From NCBI RefSeq assembly GCF_002356355.1, contig NZ_AP018052.1, positions 2,604,001 through 2,668,000 on the forward strand: a stretch of DNA of 64,000 bases, given 5' to 3'. The stretch is from Thiohalobacter thiocyanaticus. Its GTDB lineage: Bacteria > Pseudomonadota > Gammaproteobacteria > Thiohalobacterales > Thiohalobacteraceae. Both the position numbers and the translations under genes were made by a program. Of the stretch, positions 4,001-47,389 are shown one piece after another; the first letter of the stretch is position 1; each line of letters begins with the position of its first letter. The notes below the pieces were generated by a model, which saw nothing but the letters and a program-made list of their open reading frames with translations, did not search any database and had not been told where the DNA came from.

Positions 4001-4792
4001 ATGGGGCACAGCCCGAGAATCCTGGTCTGCGAACATGACGAAGCACTCCGCATCCAGCTGGCACGCAAACTCGAAAGCGCCGGTTTCTGGGTCGATACCG
4101 CCGGCAACGCCCGCCAGGCGCTGCGGCAACTGGAATGCCACAGCTTTGATGCCATGACCCTGAGCCTGCTGCTGGCGGACCAGGACAGCATCACCTTCCT
4201 GCACGATCTGAGTGTACTGGGCGTGGAATTGCCGATTCTGGTCACGTCCATGCGCACCGAGCGCGCATCCACCCTGCCGACCCGGCTGGCTGCGCAGCTC
4301 GATGTCGACCTGGAACTCGATGACGACGGCACCGAGCCCGAATGGGTGCGCAAGGCCGCCGACCAGGCGCGGGTGATCTTCGCCATCAAGACCGCCTGCC
4401 AGCGCTCGCGCAGCTATCAGCCCCGCATCCTGCATATCGAACCGGATGCCTTCAACGCCGGGCTGGTGAACGCGGCGCTGAACAGGAACTGCACCATCGA
4501 GCATGTCAGCGGCGTGGAGCGGCTGCCCGATGCCCTGTGCGCCGGGCCCTTCGATGTGATCCTGCTCAATCCCTCCATGGACGAGGAGCAGAGCCACTCG
4601 GCCCTGCAGCAGGTCTCCTGGGCCTTTCCCGGGGTGCCGATCGTGCTGCAGTCACAGTACGCCTTCACCCCGAACGGCAGCGACATTCATCCCATCGACA
4701 ACGATACCGGCAGCATCGGCCTGGGGCTGATCGAGGCCCTGCGCCAGCGGGTGCTGTACAACATGGATGTCCCGGAAGTCGCCCACGCGTGA
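4001..4792 (+). CDS. Tandem pseudo-receiver protein
   Basis: A 263-residue protein made of two response-regulator receiver-like folds with no output domain. Both begin with the typical strand and acidic pair (RILVCEHDE; RILHIEPD). At the usual phosphorylation site the first reads DAMTLSLLL (Ser for Asp) and the second FDVILLNPS (Asn for Asp), so neither should accept phosphate in the normal way. The ATG at 4001 has an AAGAGG ribosome site at correct spacing. In-frame starts at 3956 and 3896 are possible and would add an unstructured N-terminus. It stands alone on the plus strand. It likely works by protein contact. Its partner is unknown. Confidence 0.7.
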   Translation: MGHSPRILVCEHDEALRIQLARKLESAGFWVDTAGNARQALRQLECHSFDAMTLSLLLADQDSITFLHDLSVLGVELPILVTSMRTERASTLPTRLAAQLDVDLELDDDGTEPEWVRKAADQARVIFAIKTACQRSRSYQPRILHIEPDAFNAGLVNAALNRNCTIEHVSGVERLPDALCAGPFDVILLNPSMDEEQSHSALQQVSWAFPGVPIVLQSQYAFTPNGSDIHPIDNDTGSIGLGLIEALRQRVLYNMDVPEVAHA

Positions 4793-15417: not shown

Positions 15418-15669
15418 TCAGGCCGCGCTGGCGCGGTCCTGCTCGATCAGTTTGGCCACGCGCTCGGAGGCCTTGGCGCCCTTGGACAGCCAGTAGCCGA
15501 TACGCTCCTGGTCCATCTGCAGCTTGACATCCTGACCGCTGGCGATCGGGTTGAAGAAGCCCACCCGCTCGATGTAGCGACCGTCACGGCGATTGCGGTT
15601 GTCCGTCACCACGATGTGGTAGAAGGGACGCTTTTTGGCGCCGCCGCGCGCCAGTCGTATCGTGACCAT
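15418..15669 (-). CDS. rpsP: 30S ribosomal protein S16
   Basis: An 83-residue S16 with the canonical start [20 protein letters not shown] and the region [10 protein letters not shown]. It is first in the rpsP-rimM-trmD-rplS operon. A promoter with near-consensus -35 and -10 boxes and a GC-rich discriminator, typical of growth-rate and stringently controlled operons, lies about 95 bases upstream. The neighbouring ffh is over 850 bases away, farther than usual, because of the intervening small RNA region. Confidence 0.98.
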
Positions 15670-15763: not shown

Positions 15764-15791
15764 ATTCTACGCAATTTCCAGCAAATGTGAA
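15764..15791 (-). promoter_or_regulatory. Promoter of the rpsP operon
   Basis: On the minus strand TTCACA (15791-15786) and TAGAAT (15769-15764) are 16 bases apart and are followed by GCGCCG, a GC-rich discriminator. The predicted transcript start near 15757 leaves a leader of about 90 bases. Confidence 0.6.
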
Positions 15792-16127
15792 GCCCGCCGA
15801 CCGACGCCGGTGGCGCGGGACCCGACAACAGGCCCGCCTGCGAGGGCGTTGTCGGCAGATTTTACGGAATTATGGCCCTGTCGCCCGATCCCGCCCGCGC
15901 ACCCCAGATGTGCTGCGTGGCGTCGAAATAACTTACATTACGAAAAACAAATATTAATTATTTCTTATATTTAAGTTTAGCCCTTGTTTTTGAATTCGTT
16001 TTTGCACTGAATACCGGACATGCGGGGTGGGATTCACTGTCGACATTTTTTGCAATTTGCAATCCGATTTCTGCCAGAGACTGACTGTTTCACTCTAACT
16101 GACTGATGTTCAATATGAAACAAAAAC
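15792..16127. other. Upstream region of the putative sigma-54 RNA
   Basis: No gene is seen here. The first 110 bases are GC-rich with an inverted repeat CCGACAAC/GTTGTCGG (15822-15855). From about 15920 the segment becomes strongly AT-rich, the kind of flexible DNA often found where activators loop to a sigma-54 promoter. A perfect inverted repeat TGTTTCA (16086-16092) / TGAAACA (16116-16122) sits just before the promoter and could be an activator site. Confidence 0.45.
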
Positions 16128-16143
16128 TGGCACAGGCATTGCT
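16128..16143 (+). promoter_or_regulatory. Sigma-54 promoter
   Basis: TGGCAC (16128-16133), five bases, then TTGC (16139-16142) followed by T. It matches the RpoN -24/-12 consensus, with the invariant GG and GC exactly ten bases apart. Transcription would begin near 16154 on the plus strand. It lies in an AT-rich island away from any plus-strand protein gene. Confidence 0.75.
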
Positions 16144-16153
16144 CTGTCATTGG

Positions 16154-16357
16154 GGCACAAAACAACAACAATCCAGTCGGTGGAGTCGAGCTTTACAACA
16201 AACAAGAAATGGAGGAGTTGCCCGGATAACAAAATAAACGGGTTTCAGCGGCAGCCTGACGACAGCGAGCAAATATAAAAACATCTGTTGAAAGTCTGCT
16301 ACGCGACAGCGCGACATTGGCGGCGGCACCGGAAACGGTCCGCCGTTTTTCTTTTTT
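16154..16357 (+). ncRNA. Putative sigma-54-dependent small RNA with Hfq-type AAN motifs
   Basis: The interval from the predicted start of the sigma-54 promoter to the end of a strong terminator is about 200 bases and has no credible reading frame. It contains several A-rich stretches of the (AAN)n type bound by the distal face of Hfq: AACAACAACAA at 16161-16171, AACAAGAAA at 16201-16209, AACAAAAT at 16228-16235, and a looser one at 16271-16282. They are separated by short stems such as TCAG..CTGA and CTGT..ACAG. This layout resembles Pseudomonas CrcZ/CrcY, which are RpoN-dependent and sequester Hfq/Crc. No sequence match to those RNAs is claimed. The RNA is on the opposite strand to both ffh and rpsP. 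Its existence is a prediction. Confidence 0.6.
16321..16357 (+). terminator. Rho-independent terminator of the putative small RNA
   Basis: The stem CGGCGG-ACC / GGT-CCGCCG (nine pairs with one bulged C) closes a GGAAAC loop and is followed by TTTTTCTTTTTT on the plus strand. There is no T run on the minus strand, so it serves only plus-strand transcription. Confidence 0.88.
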
Positions 16358-16524: not shown

Positions 16525-17880
16525 CTAAAACGGCAATCCCTGCGGCAGCTTGCCCTTCATGCCCCGCAGCATCTTCGCCATGCCGCCCTTGGACATCTTC
16601 TTCATCATCTTCTGCATCTGGGTGAACTGCTTGAGCAGCTTGTTCACGTCCTGCACCTGGGTGCCGGAGCCGTTGGCGATGCGGCGCTTGCGCGAGCCCT
16701 TGATGGCGTCCGGGCGCCGGCGCTCCTGCGGGGTCATGGAATTGATGATGGCCACCATGCGCACCAGTTCGCGGTCGTCCATATGCCCCTGCACCCCCTT
16801 GGGCAGATCCCCCATGGGCAGTTTGTCCATCAGCCCGGCCAGACCGCCCATGCTCATCATCTGCTGCAGCTGGTCGCGGAAGTCCGCCAGATCGAAGCCC
16901 TTGCCCTTCTTGAGCTTGGTGGCAAGCTGCTCGACCTTCTCGCGGTCGACCTTCTGCTCGGCCTCTTCCACCAGGCTGAGCACGTCACCCATGCCCAGGA
17001 TGCGCGAGGCCACCCGCTCGGGGTGAAAGGGTTCGAGCGCGGTGGTCTTCTCGCCCACGCCCAGGAACTTGATCGGCTTGCCGGTGATGTGGCGGATGGA
17101 CAGCGCCGCACCGCCGCGGGCATCGCCGTCGGTCTTGGTGAGCACGACGCCGGTCAGCGGCAGGGCATCATGGAAGGCCCTGGCGGTGTTGGCCGCGTCC
17201 TGGCCGGTCATGCTGTCGACCACGAACAGGGTCTCGACCGGGTTGACCGCCTCATGCAGGCGCCGGATCTCCTCCATCATGTCGGCGTCGATGTGCAGCC
17301 GGCCGGCGGTATCGATGATGACCACGTCGATGAACTGCCTGCGGGCCTGATCGATGGCGCCGGTGGCGATATCCACCGGGTCCTGGTCGGTACTGCTGGG
17401 GAAGAACTGCGCACCGACCTCGCCGGCAACGGTCTCCAGCTGCTTGATGGCCGCCGGACGATAGATGTCGCAACTCACCACCAGTACGGATTTCTTCTGC
17501 TTCTCGCTCAACCAGCGCGCCAGCTTGCCGGTGCTGGTGGTCTTGCCCGAGCCCTGCAGTCCGGCCATCAGGATCACGGCCGGCGGCTGCACATTGAGGT
17601 TCAGGCCTTCGTTGGCCTCACCCATGGTGGCGACCAGTTCCTGATGCACCACCTTGACCAGGGCCTGGCCGGGCGTGAGGCTCTTGAGCACTTCCTGACC
17701 GACGGCGCGCTCGCGCACCCGGTCAATCAAGGCCTTGACCACGGGCAGGGCCACGTCGGCCTCCAGCAGGGCCATGCGCACCTCGCGCAGGGTGTCCTTG
17801 ATGTTGTCCTCGGTCAGGCGGCCCTGGCCACGCAGCCGTTTCAGGGTCTGGCCGAGACGATCGGAGAGATTTTCAAACAT
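16525..17880 (-). CDS. ffh: Signal recognition particle protein Ffh (SRP54)
   Basis: A 451-residue SRP GTPase. The N domain starts MFENLSDRLGQTLKRLRG. The G domain has P-loop GLQGSGKTTS, DTAGRLHIDADMM and TKTDGDARGG. The C-terminal M domain is methionine-rich (MQKMMKKMSKGGMAKMLRGM) and binds 4.5S RNA and signal sequences. It directs inner-membrane proteins to FtsY and SecYEG. The start at 17880 is the family start; a longer frame upstream is not conserved. Its neighbours ypjD, corB and the rpsP operon match the E. coli arrangement. Confidence 0.98.
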   Translation of the reverse strand: MFENLSDRLGQTLKRLRGQGRLTEDNIKDTLREVRMALLEADVALPVVKALIDRVRERAVGQEVLKSLTPGQALVKVVHQELVATMGEANEGLNLNVQPPAVILMAGLQGSGKTTSTGKLARWLSEKQKKSVLVVSCDIYRPAAIKQLETVAGEVGAQFFPSSTDQDPVDIATGAIDQARRQFIDVVIIDTAGRLHIDADMMEEIRRLHEAVNPVETLFVVDSMTGQDAANTARAFHDALPLTGVVLTKTDGDARGGAALSIRHITGKPIKFLGVGEKTTALEPFHPERVASRILGMGDVLSLVEEAEQKVDREKVEQLATKLKKGKGFDLADFRDQLQQMMSMGGLAGLMDKLPMGDLPKGVQGHMDDRELVRMVAIINSMTPQERRRPDAIKGSRKRRIANGSGTQVQDVNKLLKQFTQMQKMMKKMSKGGMAKMLRGMKGKLPQGLPF

Positions 17881-17943
17881 AGACTTGCAATCCACCCTCG
17901 GCGCCATGCGCCGCCGGTCATACCAGGGAACCTCTGTTCAATC

Positions 17944-47119: not shown

Positions 47120-47389
47120 TCAGACATTCCCGGGTTCAGGTCCTTCATCGGCCGCCGGGCTGTTGCCGCCGTTGTTGCTGAACCGGACATTGCGGGCCGG
47201 CACCACGGTGGAGATGGCATGCTTGTAGACCATCTGGCTGACGCTGTTCTTGAGCAGCACCACAAACTGATCGAAGGATTCGATCTGGCCCTGCAGCTTG
47301 ATGCCGTTGACCAGATAAATGGAGACCGGCACCCGCTCCTTGCGCAGGGTGTTGAGGAAAGGTTCCTGAAGTGATTGACCACGCGACAT
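47120..47389 (-). CDS. hfq: RNA chaperone Hfq
   Basis: An 89-residue Sm-like protein. Sm1 contains [39 protein letters not shown] in pieces, and Sm2 the YKHAIST motif. The tail is short and acidic. The hexamer pairs sRNAs with mRNAs; its distal face binds A-rich (AAN) repeats such as those in the putative RNA at 16.15 kb. An AGGAG site is seven bases before the ATG. It is followed by hflX, 20 bases on. Confidence 0.98.

Follow-up and report, generated by a model that had tools for sequence, protein, structure and literature searches.

A candidate PrsR-controlled, sigma-54-dependent small RNA gene of the PEP-CTERM regulon between ffh and rpsP

The 855 noncoding bases that separate rpsP and ffh contain a candidate plus-strand gene for a small RNA (sRNA) that most likely belongs to the PrsR-RpoN matrix regulon, because its upstream activator sites (UAS) match the PrsR motif, the same motif heads PEP-CTERM genes, and PrsK-PrsR pairs are present in the genome. 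The gene was recognized in a window of 64 kb, by which we mean the whole stretch of DNA analyzed, from a host genome of 3.23 Mb. The RNA ends ahead of ffh and is oriented away from rpsP; direct reading of the sequence agrees with the earlier note on this DNA in placing a plus-strand unit in the 855-base gap between two minus-strand neighbors. The features of the locus are as follows.

15418-15669, minus strand: rpsP, the divergent neighbor, from the list of open reading frames (ORFs) and identified by sequence; it served as the rpsP query
15850-15866, plus strand: third PrsR-type UAS copy, TGTCGGCAGATTTTACG, matching 11 of the 12 informative positions of TGTCGRNNNNNYTTACA
15921-15937, plus strand: UAS1, CGTCGAAATAACTTACA, at -207 relative to the -24 element; conserved place and spacing across 18 loci from three families
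16038-16054, plus strand: UAS2, TGTCGACATTTTTTGCA, at about -90/-91; place and spacing conserved in 18 loci
16096-16108, minus strand: candidate IHF site, CATCAGTCAGTTA, lying between UAS2 and the promoter; 8 of 9 consensus positions
16128-16142, plus strand: sigma-54 -24/-12 promoter, TGGCACAGGCATTGC, full consensus; conserved in 10 of 10 family genomes in which rpsP was found and in families f81 and f153
16154-16357, plus strand: small RNA gene without a conserved ORF; core and terminator conserved, probable start about 12 nt past the -12 element
16159-16171, plus strand: A-rich (AAN)n segment 1, AAAACAACAACAA, a possible Hfq distal-face site by AACAA enrichment and predicted accessibility
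16195-16209, plus strand: A-rich segment 2, ACAACAAACAAGAAA, directly 5' of the GGAGGAG motif; AACAA enrichment and predicted accessibility
16211-16218, plus strand: conserved GGAGGAGU motif; GGAGGAG in 10 of 10 family members and in G317, G376, and G367, and also in VPLPA-CTERM mRNA leaders
16220-16243, plus strand: hairpin GCCCG/CGGGU with an A-rich loop; pairing kept in 97.5% of cells
16321-16357, plus strand: intrinsic terminator CGGCGG..CCGCCG-T5CT6, from a terminator scan; every family member has the stem and T-run
16525-17907, minus strand: ffh, the convergent neighbor, from the ORF list and identified by sequence

The promoter reads TGGCAC-AGGCA-TTGC with the exact GG-N10-GC spacing that had been reported for it. 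Of 5000 dinucleotide-shuffled versions of the ffh-rpsP gap, 42 contain a full-consensus sigma-54 site; taken alone, the match is suggestive only and could be luck, and its conservation was therefore tested. The 272-base stretch described in the earlier note has counterparts of 96% and 88% identity in two congeners, and all ten family genomes in which rpsP was located have a TGGCAY-N5-TTGC site directed away from rpsP, followed by an RNA body of 164–252 nt and then by a GC-rich stem and a T-run. Both the -24/-12 element and the AAN motifs are thus retained in close relatives that share this gene order, the point on which the earlier note had staked its proposal. As the unit of promoter, RNA, and terminator is conserved in ten Thiohalobacter-family genomes and in two further families, it is not a product of chance. 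The inverted repeat TGTTTCA/TGAAACA noted near the promoter is present as described but restricted to three congeneric species. The position of the possible IHF site between UAS2 and the promoter is suggestive, but its match is weak: candidates at -32/-33 occur in 12 of 18 loci with variable match quality, and shuffles often score equally. A further sigma-54 consensus match, TGGCATTCCAGTTGC, lies at 4126-4140 of the window on the minus strand.

Regulon membership of the sRNA is decided by the UAS, all three of which fall outside the coordinates of the earlier note and are unmentioned there. The tandem 17-base motif TGTCGR-N5-YTTACA precedes the sigma-54 promoter, with copies whose first bases lie at about -207 and -91 relative to the -24 element and a spacer of ~73 nt from the UAS to the -24/-12 site. 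The distance between UAS1 and UAS2 is 114–117 bp in 18 of 18 loci measured in three families; in G006, the copies lie at -193 and -79. The third copy is seen in the three congeners. Three UAS of 11/12 quality lie in the gap, a number reached by none of 5000 gap shuffles, and these gap copies are the only matches of 11–12 out of 12 in the 64-kb window.

Haft et al. (2006) described a motif 1 of 17 nt with TTTACA at its 3' end, which is in some cases repeated and which is followed after a spacer of 32–92 nt by a sigma-54 site (motif 2), and assigned it to PrsR by phylogenetic profile (PMC1569441); for pepA of Aquincola, RpoN dependence of the promoter and a mapped start have been reported (PMC9850573). 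The sites in the window have the layout of the PrsR regulon, with a spacer of ~73 nt between the motif 1-type sites and the -24/-12 site, inside the published range of 32–92 nt, and three copies in total. A motif search with inspection of the downstream genes revealed the UAS motif and a sigma-54 site ahead of PEP-CTERM/VPLPA-CTERM genes elsewhere in the same genome, several of which were confirmed by NCBIfam, one as a PepA homologue above cut-off. The genome encodes PrsT and two PrsK-PrsR pairs, whose PrsR proteins score 715 and 689 bits against a cut-off of 503 bits. The pairs are located at G000:C1:621500-628500 (L198) and 2463000-2473000 (L199), and one adjoins two PrsT-like genes. In the class sample, all seven genomes that carry the sRNA have PrsR above cut-off, versus 106 of 369 genomes overall, the seven being related genomes and not independent events. 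The link from motif to PrsR is thus a published inference joined to co-occurrence, not a footprint. The outermost PrsR-type site is near the likely rpsP promoter (window 15764-15866); because of this position, PrsR might influence the rpsP-rimM-trmD-rplS operon too.

The RNA body contains the A-rich segments at the positions previously given for them, AACAAAATAAAC at 16228-16239 being the one within the core hairpin. The pentamer AACAA occurs 22 times in the RNAs of seven family members versus 5.4 ± 2.2 times in shuffles, reaches ~4–5 times the shuffle level in all three RNA sets, and is mostly predicted to be unpaired; (AAN)3 is likewise far above shuffles, and the RNA shares with CrcZ/CrcY the presence of several CA motifs (AANAAN). 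GGAGGAG is counted 8 times versus 0.2 in shuffles and greatly exceeds chance expectation in two of the three RNA sets, with no special accessibility in predicted folds. Pairing of the core hairpin is kept at 97.5% over 8 sequences with few compensatory changes. No conserved ORF follows GGAGGAG, and most copies have no start codon at a proper distance. The strong plus-strand terminator was recovered both by direct reading and by the terminator scan. The sequence supports the earlier description of a sigma-54-dependent, noncoding, terminator-ended plus-strand RNA with (AAN)n motifs, which prove to be conserved and are predicted to be unpaired. When the window, the gap, and 14 related loci were scanned against Rfam, the sole family returned was one tRNA elsewhere.

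Across six genera the RNA body diverges strongly, and what persists is GGAGGAG(U), the AAC repeats, and the terminator, with a CCCG..CGGG hairpin after GGAGGAG in most family members. The RNA of G005 (L013) is enlarged to 252 nt with 11 GGA, and that of G003 (L011) has a second GGAGGAGU within the terminator loop. A covariance model search of 369 class genomes gave strong matches only in the family and in one f81 genome (G317); the weaker matches were rejected, as most were either protein-gene leaders that have sigma-54 sites or fortuitous. The locus was identified in several genomes of the order of f81 with the same UAS spacing and an RNA body often without GGAGGAG. In a survey of 87 further rpsP-upstream regions (58 from PrsR-positive and 29 from PrsR-negative genomes, two regions shortened by contig ends), matches were limited to f81 (G090) and f153 (G367), the latter RNA carrying GGAGGAG, an ACCCGG/CCGGGU hairpin, and ACAACAATAAC. 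The sRNA promoter was found at rpsP in 0 of the 29 PrsR-negative genomes. The RNA is missing at rpsP in 56 of the 58 PrsR-positive genomes, and the regulon can therefore do without an sRNA at this position. The gene is thus old enough to span three families, yet is not universal in the PrsR regulon. A scan of the genome collection with a pattern of sigma-54 site and GGAGGAGT yielded 34 stretches, none with a UAS pair noticed beyond the family members. In G214 (L225, f81), no sRNA promoter was found beside rpsP, which adjoins a histidine-kinase-like gene.

A second RNA gene of the PrsR type, apparently noncoding, is found next to ubiB in four f81 genomes (L172:1501-1662, minus strand; L173; L189; L190). 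It has UAS at -180/-78, ~200 nt without an ORF, a terminator, one or two GGAGGAG, and AACAACAACAAGG, and it has no Rfam match. The ffh-rpsP and ubiB-side RNAs have motif content in common, not alignable sequence. Two f75 loci (L123 and L133) have sigma-54-like promoters followed by very AAC/AAT-rich noncoding stretches of CrcZ-like appearance, with no Rfam match and no PrsR-type sites. In the PrsR-positive genome G166 (f157), a full-consensus sigma-54 site at L119 is followed by a terminator-ended stretch of ~190 nt that has no long ORF, with only a weak UAS-like site at -69.

These elements can be assembled into a two-step model, which as a whole (an sRNA gene of the PEP-CTERM/exopolysaccharide regulon, driven by PrsR and acting as a decoy) we consider somewhat better than an even bet. 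In the first step, which is very probable, the phosphorylated form of PrsR, which is the response regulator of the PrsK-PrsR pair, would bind two, here three, TGTCGR-N5-YTTACA sites and activate sigma-54 RNA polymerase at 16128-16142, such that an RNA of ~200 nt ending at the terminator is made alongside the mRNAs of PEP-CTERM/VPLPA-CTERM surface proteins. In the second, post-transcriptional step, which we propose tentatively, the AAC repeats and GGAGGAG would copy the ribosome-binding leaders of the co-regulated VPLPA-CTERM mRNAs, and the decoy would draw off a leader-binding repressor and thereby allow these mRNAs to be translated. The best candidate for this repressor is Hfq, because of the AAN repeats, as with CrcZ in Pseudomonas; an hfq gene, assigned by sequence, is present in the window (47120-47389, minus strand). 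Such an arrangement would constitute a coherent feed-forward loop, CrcZ-like in its working but answering to PrsR. GGAGGAG is the ribosome-binding site in four of the four VPLPA-CTERM genes examined with this promoter type (three here and L191 in G376), precedes one of 49 window ORFs, and is absent from the remaining PEP-CTERM leaders inspected in this regulon, in a comparison that covers few genes, is partly circular in that ORF starts were partly chosen by a Shine-Dalgarno rule, and concerns a pattern noticed before it was tested. The leader of L111 is identical to the G002 copy of the sRNA over a 13-base run and contains AAC repeats too, and the second PrsR-type RNA of f81 has both motifs. 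Most ffh-rpsP copies of f81 lack GGAGGAG, which on this evidence cannot be the sole working part. A broader idea, which we regard as speculative, is that a family of PrsR-RpoN regulatory RNAs (at ffh-rpsP in three families and beside ubiB in one) could have arisen from VPLPA-CTERM leaders and act as decoys, so that one two-component system would set both transcription and translation of the matrix.

Nearly as likely as the decoy, if doubtful in itself, is an Hfq-dependent base-pairing sRNA of the same PrsR regulon, whose A-rich segments and terminator tail would bind Hfq while GGAGGAGU or another segment pairs with C/U-rich mRNAs, for example those of flagellar genes. The conserved short motif beside a hairpin, the A-rich segments, the U-rich terminator tail, and hfq in the genome all accord with this idea; the G-rich seed, however, is itself a Shine-Dalgarno sequence, which would require unusual, anti-Shine-Dalgarno-like targets, and it has been lost in several f81 copies. 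Less likely than pairing is a CsrA/RsmA sponge whose GGA motifs titrate CsrA that otherwise blocks matrix mRNAs. The RNA does carry GGAGGAG, csrA was found in 10 of 14 genomes checked, and GGA occurs up to 9 times in the ubiB-side RNA of f81, in part within a hairpin, GAUUC-GGAG-GAGUC. GGA itself, however, amounts to 43 versus 33.8 in shuffles in f1 and is not enriched in the f81/f153 copies (20 versus 22.7), and G007, which is 95% complete, keeps the RNA with no csrA found; we therefore consider a sponge improbable.

More improbable still is a cis-acting or decayed element, either a leftover PEP-CTERM leader that has lost its gene or a tuner of rpsP/ffh transcription. Descent from such a leader is suggested by the promoter layout (-207/-91), which equals that of the VPLPA-CTERM genes L077 and L191, and the UAS lie beside the likely rpsP promoter, but strict spacing, terminator, and AAC repeats have been kept in three families despite quite different RNA bodies, and the RNA stops before ffh and points away from rpsP. 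The earlier note had read the gene as a global regulator RNA, perhaps for carbon or nitrogen control, with CrcZ/CrcY and some NtrC-controlled sRNAs as RpoN-dependent precedents. Of all readings, a CrcZ/CrcY homologue under CbrB for carbon catabolite control has the least to recommend it: it shares a sigma-54 promoter and AAC repeats with CrcZ, but there is no Rfam match at gathering score and none to CrcZ in the gap at E values up to 5, and the co-regulated genes are PEP-CTERM genes. NtrC or CbrB control of the promoter finds no support in the activator motif, which matches the PrsR/PEP-CTERM type and co-occurs with PrsK-PrsR. CbrB uses 6-bp nonpalindromic subsites spaced 12–16 nt apart (PMC6296734), which are too short and loose for exclusion by sequence; the upstream sites found are of the PrsR type.

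PEP-CTERM proteins and their exosortase are important for activated-sludge and sediment flocs and biofilms. We found no description of an sRNA in the PrsR/PEP-CTERM regulon in the literature as far as it was searched, and this RNA, which has no match in Rfam, is apparently undescribed; the literature that was found treats the control of PEP-CTERM genes solely at the level of transcription, through RpoN/PrsK-PrsR. Because the sRNA promoter carries the switch sites of PEP-CTERM genes, our analysis suggests that the matrix program includes its own regulatory RNA. A regulon RNA would add a post-transcriptional layer to matrix control, would provide a defined RNA for testing how matrix proteins are switched on, and would add PrsR to the short list of sigma-54 activators with a known regulatory RNA target.

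Among known systems, CrcZ/CrcY of Pseudomonas (CbrB-RpoN) are likewise sigma-54-dependent RNAs with AAC repeats that could sequester Hfq, whereas the RNA described here has no sequence match to them, differs in activator sites and neighborhood, is smaller (~200 nt), and has an additional GGAGGAG-hairpin core. RsmY/RsmZ and CsrB/CsrC share the GGA-containing motif and an action that would favor matrix production, but GGA motifs are too few here, show no enrichment in f81/f153, and the promoter gives no sign of GacA. Control of an sRNA by a response-regulator enhancer-binding protein and sigma-54 is also seen in GlmY/GlmZ (GlrR) and Qrr (LuxO), which differ in regulon and in that the present RNA has no Rfam match; the GlrR site, TGTC-N10-GACA, differs from the site here by one base of spacing. 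There is a further likeness to the PEP-CTERM/EpsH promoters of Haft et al., with a 17-nt motif ending in TTACA, sometimes repeated, a sigma-54 site ~73 nt on, and PrsK-PrsR present, except that a protein gene is driven there and a noncoding RNA here.
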